Source: Methanothermobacter sp. (lineage in GTDB: Archaea; Methanobacteriota; Methanobacteria; Methanobacteriales; DSM-23052). Taken from it: a stretch of 64,000 bases of DNA. The position numbers and the translations under genes are program-made. This document shows, in pieces, positions 27,468 through 37,887 of the stretch (the stretch's first letter is position 1; every line of letters begins with the position of its first letter). The notes under the pieces are model-generated. The model was given only the letters and a program-made list of their open reading frames with translations, was not told where the DNA came from and ran no database searches. The stretch is taken from assembly GCA_030055615.1 (NCBI GenBank), contig JASFYN010000003.1:1-64000 (forward strand), read 5' to 3'.

Positions 27468-28115
27468 TTATAATTTTTTGTAGCAGAGCCACCAGTCAAA
27501 GCAGTTTTCTTTGCCTTTTCTCTTCTTGGCGGTTTCAATGTCTGTTGGTGGCGGTATAATAACCCCCTCGCCAATTATCTCATTTTCAGGCCAATTGGCT
27601 GGCAGTGCAACGCCCTCTTCGTCGATTGTCTTGAAACCTTTTATCATACGGAGTATTTCATCCATGTTACGTCCAAGCTCCTGTGGATAATAGAGTATGG
27701 CTCTTATTATACTCTGTGGGTCTATGATGAAAACTGCCCTTACTGTGTTGGTTGGTCTTGCAGGGTGTATTAACCCGAGTGTATCAGCTACTTTCCCTGT
27801 GTCTGCAATTATGGGAAATTCTATTTCTACTTCCATGTTCTCTTTTATCCATTCGGTCCATTTTAGGTGTGAGAATACTTGGTCTACGCTTAATCCTATT
27901 AGTTCACAGTTTAGTTCCTTGAATTGGGGGTATCTTTTTTGGAATGCTATGAATTCTGTTGTGCAGACTGGTGTGAAATCTGCTGGGTGGCTGAATAGTA
28001 TGAACCATTTTCCCTTGTATTCTGTTGGGAGTTTCATCATCCCATGTGTTGTCTGGACTTCCATTTCTGGGAACTTGTCCCCTATAAGGGGCATTCCCTC
28101 CTTTTTATCTTCCAT
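27468..28115 (-). CDS. Peroxiredoxin (Prx6-like)
   Basis: A 215-aa thiol peroxidase. The peroxidatic Cys is in [12 protein letters not shown] with the Thr and Arg partners of the active site ([11 protein letters not shown]). The long C-terminal arm with a [11 protein letters not shown] tail carries two further Cys, as in archaeal Prx6-type decamers. A GGAGGG ribosome site precedes the ATG. It lies 14 bases upstream of sod. Confidence 0.95.
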
Positions 28116-28120
28116 TATTT

Positions 28121-28639
28121 TTATCCCTCCTTTTCATCTGTTGGTGGGTTGAATACTCTCCCAGCGAGCTCGTTATCTACCATTAGGATGCCCGCCGGTG
28201 ATTCAGATGCAAGTTTAACCTTCCTGAGGAGTTCCTTTGCTGACTCCTCCTCTTCAACCTGTTCCGCCACGAACCATTGGAGGAAATTATAAGTGGCATG
28301 ATCCTTCTCCTCCAGGGCCAAATCCACAAGATCATTTATTAGACCTGTGACTTTCCTTTCATGCTCTAGTACATGTTTACTAACATCTAATGGGGATTCC
28401 CACTCTTCGGGTGGTTTTTCGATCGTTTCAAGGGTTACTCGCCCATCTCTTTGGACTATGTAATCGAAGAATTTCATGGCATGGGTTAGTTCCTCTTGTG
28501 CCTGGACTCGCATCCAATTAGCAAATCCTGGCAGGTCAGAGGCCTCATAATATGCGGCCATTGAAAGATACAAATAGGCTGAATATAATTCCGCATTCAA
28601 TTGTTGGTTCAAGGCTTCTTCCATCCTTTTACTTAACAT
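28121..28639 (-). CDS. Ferritin
   Basis: A 172-aa four-helix-bundle ferritin that oxidises and stores iron. Ferroxidase ligands are visible in [34 protein letters not shown] and the later [19 protein letters not shown] stands a good distance before the ATG. It is five bases upstream of the peroxiredoxin and limits Fenton chemistry in this oxygen-defence set. Confidence 0.95.
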
Positions 28640-28646
28640 TTTTTCA

Positions 28647-29807
28647 TCATCTCCTCAATTTTTTCTTTAATCTCATTGCAAGTTTGTCTAACCTTTCAAA
28701 ATCTTCTTTGCGAGGTTTGCCCTTTATGAGCACGGGCTCTAAAAATTCGACATTTATGGTCTCAAGTAGTTTTTTGGTTTCTTTTTCGATGAGGGTGCCC
28801 CAACCATATGATCCTATTAATGCAATGTATTTTATTGGTGGTTTGAGCATGTTAACAAGGTATAGTGTGGAGGCTACACGTGGATGCGGCCTAGTTAATA
28901 CTGTGGGGGATGCTATGATCATGGCCATTGAATCGACGAGTTCCATTAAGAGCTCCCCCGTATTAGTATTTGCAAGGTTTAATACTCTGGTTTCAACATT
29001 CAAGTCCATGAGTGTTCTTGTGATGTGTTTGACCATGAGTTCCGTGCTTCCATGCATTGAAATATAGGCTATGACCACCTTTTTTGATCTCTGTGATAAC
29101 CATTTTTCATAAAGGCCTAGTATGATTTCTGGTTTTTTTATGAGGGGGCCGTGTGATGGTGCTATCATTTTTATTTCAAGGTTTTTGAGCTTTTCGAGGT
29201 TTCCTTGTACCATTTGGGAAAATGGCATCATTATATGGGCATAGTATCTTTTGGCCTCCTCGTGGATGTCCTCTAACTTCGATATTGTCTTAGTTGTTGC
29301 AAAGTGTGATGCAAAAAAGTCGCAAGAAAATAGTATAGCTTCTGGTAGGAGATATGTTACCATGGTGTCTGGCCAGTGAACCCAGGGGGTTACTATGAAA
29401 TTTAGTTGGTGGTGGCCGGCCGATAATATTTGTCCATCTTCTATACTCTGGATTTTATCAGCTGGGATTCCTAATAGATTTTCTAGGAGTTCTTTGCATG
29501 CTCTTGTCCCTAGGATCTTAGCATTGGGATATTCCCTTAGCAGGGTGGGTATTGCACCCGAGTGATCTTGTTCTGCATGTTGTGATATTATATAATCTAT
29601 TTGAACATTTAAGGATTCAAGATCCTCTAATAGTTCCCCCGCCATTGAGGGTTCTGTGGAATCTATTAGGATGTTCTTCTCGTCTTTTATCAAAAAAGAA
29701 TTGTATGTTGTACCCTTTGGAGTTTCTAATATGCTGTCGAAGGTTCTTCTATCCCAGTCGAAGTTTTGGAGAGCGTAAACGTCCTCTGCTATTTTTTTAA
29801 TTACCAT
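28647..29807 (-). CDS. fprA: F420H2 oxidase (flavodiiron protein)
   Basis: A 386-aa protein from the ATG at 29807, one base after the rubredoxin stop; an earlier in-frame start would overlap that gene. The diiron site is in [13 protein letters not shown] (HxExDHxG) with the later [11 protein letters not shown] and APSHGPL. The C-terminal flavodoxin domain begins [15 protein letters not shown]. Methanogen FprA reduces oxygen to water with reduced F420. The two adjacent rubredoxin genes would be natural electron partners if F420 is not the only donor. Confidence 0.93.
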
Positions 29808-29808
29808 T

Positions 29809-29970
29809 CTAATCAATCTTCTTGAATTGGTCCTTTCCCACTCCACAGATGGGACAAGTCCAATCATCTGGCAAGTCCTCGAAGGGTGTTCCAGGTTTTA
29901 TACCATGGTTTGGGTCACCCTCCTCTGGATCATAAATATATCCGCACATCTGGCACTGGTATTTATCCAT
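29809..29970 (-). CDS. Rubredoxin
   Basis: A 53-aa protein with both CxxC pairs, [14 protein letters not shown] and [14 protein letters not shown], which hold one iron. The start at MDKYQC is preferred because it gives the standard length and has GGGGGT five bases upstream; an ATG 21 bases earlier is possible. Small electron carrier in the cytoplasm, upstream of fprA. Confidence 0.95.
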
Positions 29971-29996
29971 TTTAACCCCCAACCCATACACCCCCT

Positions 29997-30170
29997 TTAA
30001 TCTAATGGTTTAAACATCCTCTTAGGAGCCCCACAGGAAGGGCACCTCCACAAGTCGGGTAGATCTTCAAAAGGCGTTCCTGGGGGCGTGTCCCTACGCG
30101 GTTCGCCCTTCTCTGGGTCATAGATGTATCCACAAACCTTGCACTTATACTTCTTCAAAGATGACACCAT
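29997..30170 (-). CDS. Rubredoxin (second copy)
   Basis: A 57-aa rubredoxin with [14 protein letters not shown] and [13 protein letters not shown]. It is similar to but distinct from the neighbouring copy: its linker has an Arg-rich PRRDTPPG turn. There is no clear ribosome site before the ATG at 30170; a TTTAAATA motif about 28 bases upstream suggests a short-leader or leaderless mRNA starting the whole fprA-ferritin-peroxiredoxin-sod unit. A longer reading frame upstream is not credible. Confidence 0.93.
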
Positions 30171-31352
30171 ACAAAATTTTAAACACTCAATAGTATTTAA
30201 AATTATCGAACAAATTATAATACATCTTGTATGCCACCATAGGCGTCGTACAAAAATATAAGCCATCTATTGCTAATATAAAATCCACTGCTTGTTTAAA
30301 TGCGTGTTCTGGAATTTTATAGGTGCATGTTAAACTATTGCTGGCATGCCCCTTCCAACTAGTCATATTTGAAAGCTCATATTTAATAACTTGATCCTAT
30401 CATCCATTATATTTTAGCAGTTAGATGTGGGATAAAAAGGAGCATTCTCCCCCCTATAATGGCCCATATTAGAGTGAATATCAACCATAATTTATTGAGA
30501 TCCTCTCTATGTCATGGATAACATATTCTCTGGCTAATTGTCTGTTCAACATCCTTTCCTCATCCTTGGGACTTTTTTGTAAAATTAACCCTCCATTATG
30601 TAATATCATTTCTTCAGAGATTTGTTTTCTCTTCTTATAGCTTTGATGATGGCCTCATGGGTCCGAAACTCTGGAGGGCACATCTCGCCTATACTATTCT
30701 ATCAGGAAAGTTAGGGTCTCTGATGATGCTTCCCCATACTCGTTTTCGCATATAATAATTTCACTCGCTCTTCCTACTTAGATAAAAAAAAGTATGGAAA
30801 AGCCGCAATGAATGTTAAAATATCCAAATCTTCCATGATATTCTAAACTTTAAAGTTTATAATTTTGGTAGACCGGCATAGCATCGTAATAACATTTACA
30901 TATAAAACATAAAGTTGGGGGGTGTCTGGTGACAAATTTGGGACGCTCGTTGTTAATCGTCTATACAGCCATGTTTGACTCTGAAGATTATTTTATTGGC
31001 CATATCAACATTCTATTTCGTGAGCAAACCAATGTAGCAAAAGGATTCCCATAAGCCTTCCAGCACCCCACTTATATATTCTTCAGTTCATATATGGGCA
31101 TTGATATCTCAAAATTTTTAACTGAAATTTGTACTCTGATTTTCAAATAATAGCTTGAAAACTTTTATAATGGAATCTGCCCCCAATATCCGTTGAGATT
31201 CCAATCAGAGATACTCCCCCCAAAGGAATCCGCCACAACCGCAAATAGAAATATTAGTCATTTTGCCTTCACTATATTGTGACTATCCATATTAGACAAT
31301 ATTCTGCATCACTAATGTTCTTTTTAACGAAAAGCACGATATTGCCAGTATT
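30171..31352 (-). other. About 1.2 kb without an intact gene
   Basis: No frame longer than about 60 codons with a credible start is present. On the minus strand between about 30500 and 30830 the frame shows coding-like stretches broken by stops, for example VGRASEIIICENEYGEAS and SEEMILHNGGLILQKSPK, which suggests a decayed gene. The part from 30880 to 31350 shows nothing I can name. The right end holds the promoter of the second rubredoxin. Confidence 0.5.
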
Positions 31353-31841
31353 TTAGATGTTGAACTTTTGGGGATTTTTATTTACTAATTCGTCTCGTTG
31401 CCTTTCATAATCCTTAGCCTCGTACATGAACTTATTCGCAAGTTCTAGACTGTCATTGGCCGATTCTATCTCATCTATTCTGAGGAGTTGTATTGCATTT
31501 TTAAGTTCTGAGGTGGCGTTCAATTTTGCATCTATTTCCGCTAATACAAGTTTCAAATATTCTACGAATACCTCATCCCCTGCCTCTTCTGCATATGCCA
31601 TGGCCTCGGATGTTAAAAGTCGGGCCGCATTATATTCAGATGATGCTGATTCACATTTTTCAAGAGCACTCTCCAGCCTATGACTGTTCACATCCTCTGC
31701 AGCCCCATTGTAATATTCATCACCCTTTTTAAGGTGTTGGTTGATATCCCCTGATAACCTGTTTATTTCATTTATATTAGAAATGCACCCACTGCAAGAA
31801 ACGATTATAATTATAATGACTAATACAAGTCTTCTTTTCAT
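31353..31841 (-). CDS. Putative lipoprotein, helical
   Basis: A 162-aa protein starting at MKRRLVLVI with GGAG upstream. The basic n-region, hydrophobic run of Ile and Val, and lipobox-like VSCSGC (Cys about residue 20) point to an exported lipid-anchored protein. The mature part is helical and acidic with Ser/Ala/Glu-rich heptads (GDEYYNGAAEDVNSHRLESAL), reminiscent of methanogen surface helical-bundle proteins. Function unknown. It lies downstream of the superoxide reductase with about 120 bases between them, and may be co-transcribed. Confidence 0.65.
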   Translation of the reverse strand: MKRRLVLVIIIIIVSCSGCISNINEINRLSGDINQHLKKGDEYYNGAAEDVNSHRLESALEKCESASSEYNAARLLTSEAMAYAEEAGDEVFVEYLKLVLAEIDAKLNATSELKNAIQLLRIDEIESANDSLELANKFMYEAKDYERQRDELVNKNPQKFNI

Positions 31842-31962
31842 GTTTCTTACTCCTTCGGGGAGAGAACACACCATGTATGTGGTGTCTCCCAGAATTCCCT
31901 GGAGAGACCCCCCAACATTAACATGCTTTAATCTGTAGACCATAGGGGGCTCGACGCTCTTT

Positions 31963-32340
31963 TTAATCATGCCATAGTCCATGTATGTTACAATATGATC
32001 TTACCATGATTTTCTTGGTTGGTTTTTCTCTGAATGTTGCCTCTGGCTTGTCACCTGCTTTGAGGGTTTTCCTTAACACTTTATCATCTATTATGAGTTC
32101 TATCCATTGGATGTGGTGGCCTTCCTCCATTGGATGTGCTGTTTCACCAACTTTCACTTTTAGGCCTTCTTCTGTCTCCTCTACTATGGGGATGTGTTTC
32201 TCCGGGCCTACGTCTGTGTGCCTTGCTAAGAGTAGCTCCATTGGCTGGTCGCAGCATACTAAGCGCCCTTCACCGGGGTTGAGAATTTCGACTATGTTAC
32301 CACATATGTTGCATCTGAATATTTGGTTTATACTCGTCAA
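31963..32340 (-). CDS. dfx: Desulfoferrodoxin (superoxide reductase, class I)
   Basis: A 125-aa protein that reduces superoxide to peroxide. The N-terminal desulforedoxin iron site has FRCNICG and LVCCDQPMELL (four Cys). The catalytic iron site ligands are His in KHIPIVE, HPMEEGHHIQWIEL and the Cys/His pair in SYCNIHGLW. Both centres are present, so it is a two-iron enzyme. Rubredoxin or rubrerythrin next to it could donate electrons. Confidence 0.95.
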   Translation of the reverse strand: MTSINQIFRCNICGNIVEILNPGEGRLVCCDQPMELLLARHTDVGPEKHIPIVEETEEGLKVKVGETAHPMEEGHHIQWIELIIDDKVLRKTLKAGDKPEATFREKPTKKIMVRSYCNIHGLWHD

Positions 32341-32351
32341 TTTTCCCCTCC

Positions 32352-32924
32352 TTAATATTTTTCACATTTTACTTGGAAGTATCTGCTCGGATGGTCGCAT
32401 GATGGACATTTTTCAGGCGGCTTTTTGCCTTTATGTGTGTAACCGCATTTTCTACAAGTCCATATGACTTCTTCATCTTTCTGGTAAACCCTATTGGACT
32501 CTACAAGTTCTAGGAGCTTTTTGTACCTTTCTTCGTGGTGTTTTTCAGCGACTGCTATGGCTCTTAGGCGTTTAGCTATATCATGGTACCCTTCTTCTTC
32601 CGCGATATCTGCAAATTCAGGGTACATTTCACTATACTCATAATTTTCCCCTTTTATAGCCGCTTTAAGATTCTCAGCAGTGTCTGATAATGTGAGTGGG
32701 GCTTCTGCCTCCACCGTTATAGGATCATCGGCTCCTTTTAGTTCTTGTATCATCCGGAATAACCATTTTGCATGTTCTCTTTCATTATCCGCTGTTAAAT
32801 TAAATATCTCAGAAATTTGTTCAAATCCTTCCTTTTTAGCTATTTTAGCATAGAATGTGTATCTATTCCTTGCTTGGCTTTCACCAATAAAAGCCTTAAT
32901 TAAATTCTTAAGGGTTTTGCTCAT
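32352..32924 (-). CDS. rbr: Rubrerythrin
   Basis: A 190-aa protein from MSKTLKN with a strong GGAGGTGA site. The diiron four-helix domain carries [30 protein letters not shown] and the AEEEGYHDI and EKHHEERY ligand helices. The C-terminal rubredoxin domain has [20 protein letters not shown]. It acts as an NADH- or rubredoxin-linked peroxidase in anaerobes. Only 11 bases separate it from dfx. Confidence 0.96.
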
Positions 32925-32929
32925 GCTTT

Positions 32930-34777
32930 TCACCTCCTCTTTTTAATGGTTTTGGAATTTAATATTGGAATTACAACGCTGAGAACCATCAGAGCAGCCC
33001 CCAAGGGTGGGTTTATTTGCTTGTATAGTATTCCTGTGGCGAGGGGTATAGCTACTATGTTGTAGATTGCAGCCCATGCAAGGTTTTCCTTTATCTTATT
33101 ATGAGCTGCTATAGCAATTTCTAATATACTTGGAATATCCAATGGGGTCCCCCATGGGATTATGATATCAGCGCCTTCGATGTCCAATTTATGACCTGTT
33201 CCTATGGTTATCCCAAGATCTGCTTGCTTTAGGGCTGGTATGTCATCTGGTTGGCTTATCATCCCAACCCTCAGCCCATCTTCTTGCATTTTCTTGATTT
33301 TTTTGGCCTTTTCTTCTTTTGTGAGTTCTGCGTGGTATTCATCTAATCCTAGTTCCATGGCGATGGGTTCGGCGACTTTCTTATGGTCTCCTGTTAACAT
33401 TATACATTTTATTCCCTTGTCTTTGAGGGTCTTTATTGTCTTTTTCGCCCCTTTTTTTATTTTGTCTGAGAGTCCGATGCACCCTTTAAGTTCATCGTTG
33501 ATGATTATAAATGCGAGTGTTTTTCCTTGATCTATCATTTCTAGGATTTTTGGGTTTTCTATTTGGAATCCTAGATCTTTAATGTGTTTGTAACTTGTGA
33601 TTTGGATCTTCGTATCTCCTACGTATCCTTTGATTCCTTTTCCTGGGATTGTTTTAGATTTTTTCACTGGTATGGGCTCCTTGGCTACTTCTCTTATACC
33701 CTTTGCTATGGGGTGTTGGCTTTTGGATTCTATGGCAGCGGCATAGTTGATTATGTCACCTTCATCTATTTCATCATCTAAGGATATGATATCTGTTACT
33801 TTGAATTGGCCCGTTGTGAGGGTTCCTGTCTTGTTGAATACCATGGTGTCTAGTTGGCGTGCGGTTTCATATGATTTTTTGTTTTTTATGATTATACCAT
33901 TCTTTGCAGATATTATCGTGGCTGCTAAAATTGCAGTGGGTGCTGCTAATCTGATGGCATGTGGTGATGCTGCTAAAAGTACTGTTATCGCATGTTCTAG
34001 TGCTGGTGTCATGCTTTCCCAGTAGAAGAATGTGAGTATTGCTAATGCGATCACTATTATTATGAGGGTGGATGCAATTTTGTCTGCTGATTCTTGTATT
34101 GTGGTTTTATCTTTTCTTCTTAAAAATTCTATTATTTGGGGGATGAATGATCCTTTGCTGGTTGCTATTGCTTCTATTAGGATAGGTTTTTTGATGTTTA
34201 TTGCTGCTGCTGTCACTGTTTCTCCTGGAGTCTTCTCTATATTGTTTTTAATGATTGGGTGTATCACGGTTGAACCTTTTATTATTATACCATCTGTTGG
34301 TATCACTTCCCCGTTTTTTACTAGTATGAGGTTTCCCGGCCTTATATTATCTGTGGGGGCGTTCTTGACCTTTCCGTTCTCTATAATATGTACATTCTCC
34401 GGTATGCTGCGCATAGGCTCTTCTAATGGTTCCTTAATTTTTTCTGTTAATTTTTTTCCGAGCCAACGCCCAAATAATATTATCATGATGATTATTGCCA
34501 ATTCTATGGGGATAATCCCTGCTGAAGGTGTTGATATGACGTAGAGGTAGGCCGTCGTAATTGCGATAATCGCTAAAATCGTGGATCCTAGTTTTTTCTC
34601 TTTCAATTCTCTAAAAGCGTCTCTAAAGAATGGATAGCCTCCATAGAAAAAAATCATAGAGGATAGTAATATTGTGCCCCAGTATCCTAGGCTGGATCCT
34701 ACTATGGCGATTATGGCTATTGTTAGCAGGGTGCAGATTATGAGCCTTTTTTTGAAAGTTTCCATGGGGGATAGCAC
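32930..34777 (-). CDS. P1B-type (CopB-like) P-type ATPase homologue with lost catalytic motifs
   Basis: A 615-aa protein with six to eight hydrophobic helices and the full P-type domain order, closest in pattern to CopB-type heavy-metal pumps. Every chemistry-defining motif is changed. DKTGT reads [10 protein letters not shown], with Asn315 in place of the phosphorylated Asp. The metal CPH/CPC motif reads [10 protein letters not shown] at 271. TGES reads PGET at 184. The hinge GDGxNDxP reads [11 protein letters not shown] near 507. ATP-binding marks ([20 protein letters not shown]) remain. The frame is intact, so it looks selected rather than decayed. It lies between rubrerythrin and a DUF255 gene. 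ATG 34765 is an alternative start. Confidence 0.85.
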
Positions 34778-34787
34778 CCCGATCCCA

Positions 34788-36830
34788 TTATTTGGTTAGG
34801 ATATCTATTATAGCTTCTGGGTCTTTTATGGGTGGATGGCAGGTTTTATCCTTGCATAAGTAATAGGTGCACTCATTGAGTAGTTTCTTATTTCTTAATG
34901 TTTCCGGTGCGAATGACCAGTCACTGTCTTCCAGTTTAAGAGTCACTGTAAAGTATGGTATAAATGTACTTTTTAGTTTATGGGGTATGCATGATCTTGT
35001 CCGAGCTGCTATAACTAAACTACTGCCACCTGTTTGGTGCCAGTGAGCCCCCACCAAAAGTAAGGTATAAGCTAGAGGTATTCGTTTAATCTTGGCTACG
35101 AATGACTTTATGATGTGTTCTGCAATTTTGATCATAGCTTCATCTTCTAGTATGCTACCCATTCTTAACAAGTTTAGTGCATGAACAGAATTACCTGATG
35201 GTGTTGCACTATCAGAACCCTCTTTTTTCCTTATTAAAAGACTATCAGAATAATCAGCCGTGAAAAAGAATCCCCCATTCTCATCATCTCTGAAATGTTC
35301 GTTTAATTCCTCTGATAATCCTAGGGCGAGTTTTATGTATTTTTCATTGAAGGTTGCGTCATATAATTCTAGTATCCCCCAGATGAAGAAAGCGTAATCA
35401 TCAAGATTGCCCCAAATTGCACTTTCACCATCCCTGTAACGATGCATCAACCTCCCATTCTTATAAAGTTTGTCCATGATAAATTCCAGCGCATCCTCGG
35501 CTACATTCAAATACCTCTTGTCTCCCAGTACCTTATAGCCCCTTGCAAAGGCTGCTATCATAAGCCCATTCCAGTCTGTAAGTATCTTATCATCCTTATT
35601 GGGTGGTGTCCTCCTCGACCTATAATTGAAGAGTTTTCTTCTACCATCCTCCACTTCCTCTAGGAATTCAGTGGGGTCTATTCCTTTCTCTTCTGCGAAT
35701 TTTTCTGGCATGGTCTTCATATAAAGGACGTTTTTGCCTGAGGGTTTTCCGGTCTCATCTAGTAGGTTGCCCTCTTCTTTGACATTGAAGAATTCACAGA
35801 GCAAATCAGAATCTAAAATTTCTCTTAATTCTTTCATTGTCCAGAGATAAAACTTGCCTTCTTCTCCTTCACTTTCCGCATCCTCTGCCGAATAGAACCC
35901 ACCCTTGGGGGATCTCATCTCCCTTATAACGTATTCAAATATTTCTTTTACTGTTTTCTTGTAGAGTTCCTTTCCCAATACTTGATAGGCTTCAAGGTAT
36001 GCTATGGCCATTAAAGCTTGGTCATAAAGCATTTTCTCGAAATGGGGTATCCTCCATGTAGGGTCAACAGTGTAACGATGAAAACCATACCCTACATGGT
36101 CGTAGATACCCCCAAAGCGCATTTTATCAAGGGTTAATTCAACCATACCCAAGGCTTTTTTATCTTTTAGAAGACCATACCTTAACAAGAAGTAAAGATG
36201 ATTTGGTAGTGGGAATTTCTGTGAAGACCCGAACCCCCCATTTTCATGGTCAAAGGCCTTCTTCAATTCCTCGAATCCTGCATCTATTATCTTCTCCTGG
36301 ATTTCATGTGGTTTTGTGGGTGCGTTCATCCTCTTGATGGCCATAGTGATCTCGGTGGCTGCATTATCTATGTCTTCTGGCTTTTTTTCCCAAAGTTCCC
36401 CAGTTTTTAATATGATCTCTTTTAATCCGGCCACGCCATGGCTTGTCTCCTTTGGGAAGTATGTGCCTGCGAAGAACGGTCTACCATCAGGTGTTAGGAA
36501 TATAGTGAGTGGCCAGCCCCCTGTACCTGTGAGGAGTTGGCAAGCGTTCATATAAATATTGTCAATGTCTGGTCTTTCCTCTCTGTCAACTTTAACTGGT
36601 ATGAATGTTTCATTTATGAGTTTAGCGATTACCGGGTCATTAAATGATTCTCTGGCCATCACATGGCACCAGTGACATGTGGAATAGCCTATTGACAAGA
36701 ATATGGGCTTGTTATACTTTTTTGCTGTCTTAAATGCTTCTTCACCCCATGGAAGCCAATCTACGAGGTCATGGGCATGCTGTAAAAGATATGGACTCTT
36801 CTCTTTTATAAGGGCGTTTTCATGTTCCAT
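34788..36830 (-). CDS. DUF255 thioredoxin-like/six-hairpin glycosidase-fold protein (YyaL type)
   Basis: A 680-aa protein. The N-terminal thioredoxin-like domain (about 1-165) has the redox-type motif [15 protein letters not shown] and [16 protein letters not shown]. The remainder is an alpha/alpha toroid resembling N-acylglucosamine 2-epimerase folds ([49 protein letters not shown]). The family is widespread and its biochemical role is not settled. It is the first gene of the leftward unit with the altered P-type ATPase, rubrerythrin and superoxide reductase, so a redox role is plausible. Confidence 0.9.
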
Positions 36831-36963
36831 CCAAAATTCTCCTAGTAAATTATTCGGTACAATATTTATAAATCCTCTGATAAAATACTTCCCAAAAAAG
36901 GGAAAACTTCAACATCCTCACGGAATAATTTTCCAAATTCAAATGTAGATGGGTGACCCCTAG

Positions 36964-37887
36964 ATGAGCCTAATAATAACTTATACTAGTAGCAAGGGTT
37001 GCGTAATAATAGGTGACAAGAGAAAAATAGCCTACCTTGGGAGCCCCCAGAAGAGAAAAGAACTCGAAAAAGAATTATACGATGGTAATATCAAAACCGA
37101 GGAAGAATTGAGGGCCAAGGCCGAGGAACTTGGTATAAGATTAAATATAAGAGATGATGCAAGGAAGGTTCGAAGCATCGGAGACGTTGTAGTGGGCGAA
37201 GTAAGTCTTAAAACGCCCTTCGAGGCTAAAAGGAGGAGAATATATGCCACTACAGGAGCCTATCAGATCATAGAACTTATAGGATCCAATATAACTAAAT
37301 TTGAAAAGGGTGAAAGCTCCATTGTAATATTTGGGAATACGATAACCAAAAAACTTGCCAGTAGACTATTAAAGAAACATTGGAAGAAAAAAACAAGCCT
37401 AAAAGAAGTTTCAAAACTCCTAGCGAAAATACTAGAAGAAGTCGCTGCCAGAACACCAACTATAAGCCCAGAATATGACATGTACATAAAAACTCCAAGA
37501 CTAGATAAAAGGAAAGCCCATAGACTACTCAGAGAAACCATTCTAAGGGATGTGAAAACACTTCAAAAATGGAGGGCCAAACTACAAAAAGAATTACTAA
37601 AAAAGAGCGAACAGATAAAAATGGCATCAAAGATAATAACAGAAGGAGAAATTGGAAGGGTCATAAACGTAGACAATGATAAAATCGAAGTAAAATTAGC
37701 CCCTAATGTACAAGCCTTCAACATAAAATGGAAAAAGGTTGCAAAACCCGGAGAAAACGTCCTAATGCTAAAAGAAAAACCGGGAGAAGTCAAAGTGGGC
37801 GATCTTGTCATTATTGAAAATGAAAACCTACAAATAAAAGACAAAAAAATCCCACTACAATGCAATGTTATACTTTGCAAAATATGA
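36964..37887 (+). CDS. DUF2121 protein, candidate connectase (proteasome-fold protein ligase)
   Basis: A 307-aa protein. After removal of Met the N-terminus is Ser1, and GDKRK places Asp at mature position 17, as in Ntn hydrolases of the proteasome beta type. The ELEKELYDGNIKTEEELRAKAEELG helix, DVVVGEV and RRRIYATTGAYQ are typical of the methanogen DUF2121 family, which includes the connectases described as sequence-specific protein ligases. A C-terminal beta-rich module (about 220-307) looks OB-like. GGGTGA lies five bases before the ATG. Ser rather than Thr as nucleophile, and ligase activity itself, remain to be shown. Confidence 0.75.
   Translation: MSLIITYTSSKGCVIIGDKRKIAYLGSPQKRKELEKELYDGNIKTEEELRAKAEELGIRLNIRDDARKVRSIGDVVVGEVSLKTPFEAKRRRIYATTGAYQIIELIGSNITKFEKGESSIVIFGNTITKKLASRLLKKHWKKKTSLKEVSKLLAKILEEVAARTPTISPEYDMYIKTPRLDKRKAHRLLRETILRDVKTLQKWRAKLQKELLKKSEQIKMASKIITEGEIGRVINVDNDKIEVKLAPNVQAFNIKWKKVAKPGENVLMLKEKPGEVKVGDLVIIENENLQIKDKKIPLQCNVILCKI

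Follow-up and report, generated by a model that had tools for sequence, protein, structure and literature searches.

The phosphorylated aspartate is the defining feature of P-type ATPases, and in the P1B pumps a Glu, a His and two Gly residues of the N domain contact ATP. In a human copper ATPase, the substitution D1027N abolishes the aspartyl-phosphoenzyme (PMC4179477). For the gene treated here, the nearest described analogue that was found lies in Plasmodium guanylyl cyclase beta, namely its degenerate P4-ATPase domain (PMC6592433). A conserved, stand-alone prokaryotic P-type ATPase devoid of the phosphorylated Asp was not found in the open-access literature, outside of which most subscription journals lie. 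The present analysis concerns such a gene, located in a window of 64,000 nucleotides (the whole stretch of DNA that was analysed) of a Methanothermobacter sp. contig. Altogether, the evidence makes it very probable that its product is a pseudo-pump, conserved in its family and dead for transport.

The pseudo-pump gene and its surroundings

The frame (Table 1) is open over 615 codons when counted from a GTG. Translation would probably start at the ATG at 34765 (METFKK), which occurs in the family members as well and follows a G-rich ribosome site resembling GGGGTG, yielding a protein of 611 amino acids. Immediately 5′ of this ATG, the sequence GGGGTGCTATCCCCC (34766-34780, minus strand) could fold into a short hairpin over the ribosome site, and similar runs of G followed by runs of C also stand 5′ of the start in other members of the family. 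The product is scored at 414.6 bits by TIGR01525 (heavy-metal P-type ATPase; cut-off 346.25), it is matched by both PF00122 and PF00702, and a P1B-type profile match spans its whole length, which places it by descent among the P1B ATPases. Curated models label the pseudo-pump as a heavy-metal pump, so that metal-resistance predictions drawn from such genomes would be wrong.

Table 1. Coordinates of the features of the pseudo-pump locus, given as positions in the window
Feature	Position	Strand	Remarks
Pseudo P1B-type ATPase	32930..34777	-	Open frame; TIGR01525, PF00122 and PF00702; purifying selection; start conserved in relatives
Asn315 (AAC) replacing the phosphorylated Asp, FNKTGT	33833..33835	-	Asn in all four family species and in MAG 41_258
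S271-P272-H273 in M4, replacing the CPH metal motif	33959..33967	-	SPQ in G002
Deletion site of the TGES dephosphorylation loop, A domain	34246..34255	-	Between residues 176 and 177; alignment
PGET	34217..34228	-	Aligned with the later KGDxV/PGDxV segment of active pumps
S508-Q509-P510-D511-D512 replacing GDGxND	33242..33256	-	Gln instead of the Mg-binding Asp in all four species; shorter by one residue
SQHP, N-domain ATP site, kept	33710..33721	-	E350 and H355 invariant
G379-K380-G381, N-domain ATP-site glycines, kept	33635..33643	-	Sequence comparison
T462-G463-D464, P-domain motif (TGDH), kept	33386..33394	-	Sequence comparison
Thioredox_DsbH (DUF255) gene	34788..36830	-	Co-oriented with the pseudo-pump and 10 bases upstream of its frame; also adjacent in the active orthologues
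TATA-like sequence 5′ of the first gene	36860..36871	-	Putative operon promoter, read from sequence
Rubrerythrin	32352..32933	-	Ribosome site AGGAGGTG overlies the end of the pseudo-pump frame
Superoxide reductase (desulfoferrodoxin family)	31963..32340	-	Downstream of rubrerythrin

The first-pass annotation had described an intact frame of this length carrying FNKTGT (codon AAC), SPH, SQPDD, SQHP and TGDH, all of which were confirmed in place. It had also read PGET as a variant of TGES, a reading that had to be abandoned: in the alignment, PGET falls in the KGDxV segment, and the TGES loop has been removed by a deletion. Compared with functional P-type ATPases, DKTGT has become NKTGT, the TGE loop is missing and GDGxND is replaced by [SG]Q[PSA]DD. 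The CPH of M4, which characterizes the CopB-like pumps, reads SPH, or SPQ in one of the species. With the phosphorylated Asp, the TGE loop, GDGxND and the CPx Cys all lost, the expectation of the same annotation that a normal E1-E2 cycle does not operate is supported.

As a measure of retention, we took the residues that do not vary among 24 active pumps. Of these, the N domain retains 9 of 10, including E350, H355, G379 and G381, and the same fraction is kept in the first P-domain segment, that of DKTGT, whose sole loss is Asp315; K490 is kept as well. The second P-domain segment, which contains GDGxND, retains 12/26, the A domain 7/15 and M3-M4 5/9 of their invariant residues. Furthermore, according to the alignment, the pseudo-pump lacks the N-terminal, His-rich tail that the active orthologues carry.

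As regards the genomic context, the ribosome site of rubrerythrin overlaps the end of the pseudo-pump gene in two genomes of the family (G000 and G003). Since the DUF255, pseudo-pump and rubrerythrin genes follow one another almost without gaps, with this overlapping ribosome site, their arrangement suggests that the three are likely co-expressed. Rubrerythrin and superoxide reductase form part of an oxidative-stress cluster (27468-32933, minus strand) that also comprises rubredoxin and ODP-family flavoprotein-like, ferritin-like and peroxiredoxin-like genes. A connectase-like gene of the MJ0548 family (36964-37887, plus strand) lies divergently beside the DUF255 gene, an adjacency kept in families f1 and f3 and in genome G141. 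In the same set, a frame situated downstream of superoxide reductase is also kept (31353-31982, minus strand in the window); its product combines a hydrophobic stretch with an end resembling a lipobox (SCSGC), and has no Pfam match.

Origin and distribution among relatives

In three genomes of a neighbouring family (f3, whose gene content would point to Methanothermobacter), as well as in G141, which belongs to family f2, positional orthologues of the pseudo-pump keep DKTGT, CPH, GES and GDGVND. There, the gene order is connectase-like, DUF255, ATPase and rubrerythrin, as at the pseudo-pump locus. In the tree, the pseudo-pump joins the CPH group with full support, as opposed to the CopA and Zn types. 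Its stem is long (0.80 changes per column), and for this reason it may lie inside the CPH group or beside it; a clade with the f3 orthologues has a p-AU of 0.104. Judged from gene order and phylogeny, the pseudo-pump corresponds by position to an ordinary metal pump of the CPH type (CopB-like, P1B), of which it is the orthologue. The active motifs in the f3 orthologues point to the disarming of an ancestral CPH (CopB-like) pump, which probably took place a single time, before the split of the four species. As the neighbourhood of rubrerythrin and superoxide reductase predates the loss of the motifs, it constitutes weak evidence for a new role related to oxygen.

The family comprises only four species in our genome set, each of which carries the gene; the other three copies are 88, 77 and 65% identical to that of the window. 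NKTGT, the Ser in place of the CPx Cys, the deletion of TGES and [SG]Q[PSA]DD are present in all four, in separate assemblies, and the frame has neither stop nor frameshift in any of them (4/4). Moreover, a separately fetched genome, MAG 41_258, which looks like the species of G001, carries the pseudo-pump with the same losses. A sequencing error at codon 315 is thus rejected, and the conservation that the first-pass annotation had proposed to check was found for Asn315 and, with the variants already given, for SPH and SQPDD. Orthologues with restored motifs, which it had named as a possible refutation, were not found within the family; those with intact motifs in f3 and G141 are read as the ancestral state.

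When a degenerate NKTGTLT pattern was searched in 152 genomes of the phylum, the only P-type ATPase matched was the pseudo-pump. Six further matches, in five other genomes, were discarded: two are long repeat-rich proteins, three are short proteins unlike pumps and one is a chance frame of 14 codons. Besides the pseudo-pump, the genome encodes three P1B ATPases whose motifs are intact. A second CPH pump, this one intact, exists in G000 (L002, G000:C2:255181-257097) and in G002 (L017), and was not found in G001 and G003; it groups with pumps of family f2 and may have been acquired by gene transfer.

Selection and shift of constraint

Codon evolution was analysed with a GY94 model implemented in a custom script, the domain limits being drawn by us from the alignment. 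Over the four species, the dN/dS of the pseudo-pump is 0.157 (0.142-0.173), and fixing omega at 1 costs 450 in 2dlnL. Neutrality, and with it the idea of a pseudogene, is rejected. The frame has remained open over a tree that totals about 1.3 synonymous substitutions per codon. The pairwise counts agree (0.17 to 0.35). For comparison, dN/dS is 0.127 (0.104-0.155) among the active orthologues of f3. Three neighbour genes, analysed over the four pseudo-pump species, range from 0.087 to 0.135, slightly below the pseudo-pump.

The distribution of this constraint along the protein differs from that of active pumps. With shared branch lengths, the head (N+P) has a dN/dS of 0.106 vs. 0.122 in f3, and the membrane part 0.198 vs. 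0.092. The interaction between head and membrane reaches a 2dlnL of 25.9 against f3 and 27.5 against f2-type pumps, and 0.7 in a control opposing active pumps to active pumps. When branch lengths, kappa and codon frequencies are separate for each region, the values are 0.114 (0.083-0.155) vs. 0.126 (0.098-0.163) for the head and 0.173 (0.134-0.225) vs. 0.086 (0.068-0.110) for the membrane part; the interaction then has a z near 2.9, by our own estimate from the region-specific intervals, and the effect is weaker than with shared parameters. What can safely be said is that relaxation, by about twofold, affects the membrane path and not the head.

A dN/dS estimate had been among the checks proposed for this gene, and its outcome is purifying selection with a relaxed membrane part. 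That the gene is retained under such selection, with a shifted pattern of constraint, speaks for a new role in which the ATP-binding head is central. The suggestion of a new role by the first-pass annotation stands in so far as it concerns retention, now with a shift of constraint, but its argument from the rubrerythrin and superoxide reductase neighbourhood does not, this context having been inherited from the active pump.

Possible functions and likenesses to known systems

The AlphaFold prediction, made with ten sequences, yields a complete P1B ATPase fold with a mean pLDDT of 82.2, whose conformational state should not be over-read. In the predicted model, and by its fold match to solved P1B ATPases, the membrane, A, P and N domains are arranged as in P1B pumps. 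The best TM-score among the matches listed is 0.78, with HMA4 in the E1 state, and ATP7B C983S/C985S/D1027A (PDB 7xuk, 7xun), a dead pump obtained by design, comes first by E-value. The protein thus presents the traits of a pseudoenzyme: its catalytic residues are lost, and purifying selection maintains its predicted fold.

In the common ancestor of the family, the phosphorylated Asp would have been replaced by Asn and the Mg-holding Asp of GDGxND by Gln, the TGE dephosphorylation loop would have been deleted and the Cys of CPH changed to Ser, the membrane anchor and the ATP-binding head being retained after this disarming. In other pumps, laboratory Asp-to-Asn mutants retain ATP binding, which is sometimes tighter, and in a human copper ATPase the substitution abolishes the phosphoenzyme, so that a membrane-anchored, non-phosphorylatable, nucleotide-binding head appears as the most likely state of the protein. 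Asn315 would help ATP to bind, as is known for such mutants, since it places no charge opposite the gamma-phosphate, and the head might bind ATP or another nucleotide without any transfer of phosphate. The pseudo-pump could then act as a nucleotide-responsive membrane scaffold or regulator with an output to a partner. Taken as a whole, from conservation and loss of transport to this role, we consider the proposal evenly balanced between right and wrong. The partner would most plausibly come from the redox gene cluster (the DUF255 thioredoxin-like protein, rubrerythrin or superoxide reductase), which is a guess. A more specific version, in which an Asn-tuned head that cannot be phosphorylated serves as a membrane-anchored ATP sensor and reports the energy state of the cell to co-expressed oxygen-defence enzymes, is conceivable from the sequence, and we hold it as doubtful. 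The conserved residues of the N domain could reflect folding rather than nucleotide binding, and such binding, if any, would be unusual since the Mg-binding Asp is gone.

Among the other explanations, the pseudo-pump might serve another membrane protein as a regulatory or structural partner, e.g., as a subunit of a heteromer with an active P1B pump, nucleotide binding being incidental. The retention of the full predicted pump fold and the three intact P1B ATPases of the genome are in line with it; nevertheless, the patchy occurrence of the closest active CPH paralogue (in G000 and G002 and not in G001 and G003) means that this pump is no obligatory partner, and the membrane segments, which would be the natural interface, are precisely the relaxed part. 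We regard it as unlikely. Less probable still, and improbable in our opinion, is a channel or sensor for metals that works independently of ATP and retains part of the membrane metal site. P272, Y572, N573, M597 and S600 are indeed kept in all four species, but C271 is Ser in all of them, H273 is Gln in G002, the His-rich tail has disappeared and the dN/dS of the membrane part has roughly doubled. Of the two possibilities once offered for this protein, ATP sensing or scaffolding would fit the sequence data best, while metal binding is weakened by the loss of the CPH Cys, of the His-rich tail and of the tight constraint on the membrane part.

A decaying gene, or a frame kept open merely by the coupling of the rubrerythrin start to its end, is favoured by the overlying ribosome site in G000 and G003, by the relaxed membrane part and by a dN/dS slightly above that of the neighbours. 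We judge it highly improbable, given that the constraint acts at the amino-acid level with neutrality rejected, that the head is under as much constraint as its counterpart in active pumps and that no stop or frameshift occurs in four species. Finally, although active-site Asn-to-Asp conversion is reported for mutants of some hydrolases, a pump kept working by post-translational deamidation of Asn315, which would restore phosphorylation, is scarcely credible when the protein has also lost the Mg-binding Asp, the TGE loop and the Cys of CPH, and when Asn is kept in all species though Asp lies one base away.

The conserved pseudo-pump with a possible role as nucleotide-responsive scaffold provides a natural test of the pump fold without pumping, for which the active positional orthologues can serve as controls. 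The CopB-like, CPH-type P1B ATPases (the positional orthologues in f3 and the head of a copper-exporting ATPase B, PDB 3skx/3sky) resemble it in fold, length, sequence (about 40% identity) and gene neighbourhood, but they keep DKTGT, CPH, the GES loop and GDGxND, the four of which it lacks. ATP7B C983S/C985S/D1027A shares with it the same classes of change, i.e., the CPx Cys turned into Ser and the phosphorylated Asp lost. However, that protein was made in the laboratory, whereas the pseudo-pump is natural, lacks TGE and GDGxND in addition, and is shared by several species in conserved form. In turn, the domain of Plasmodium guanylyl cyclase beta is lipid-flippase-like, fused to a cyclase and eukaryotic, whereas the pseudo-pump is a stand-alone prokaryotic protein with a metal-pump fold.
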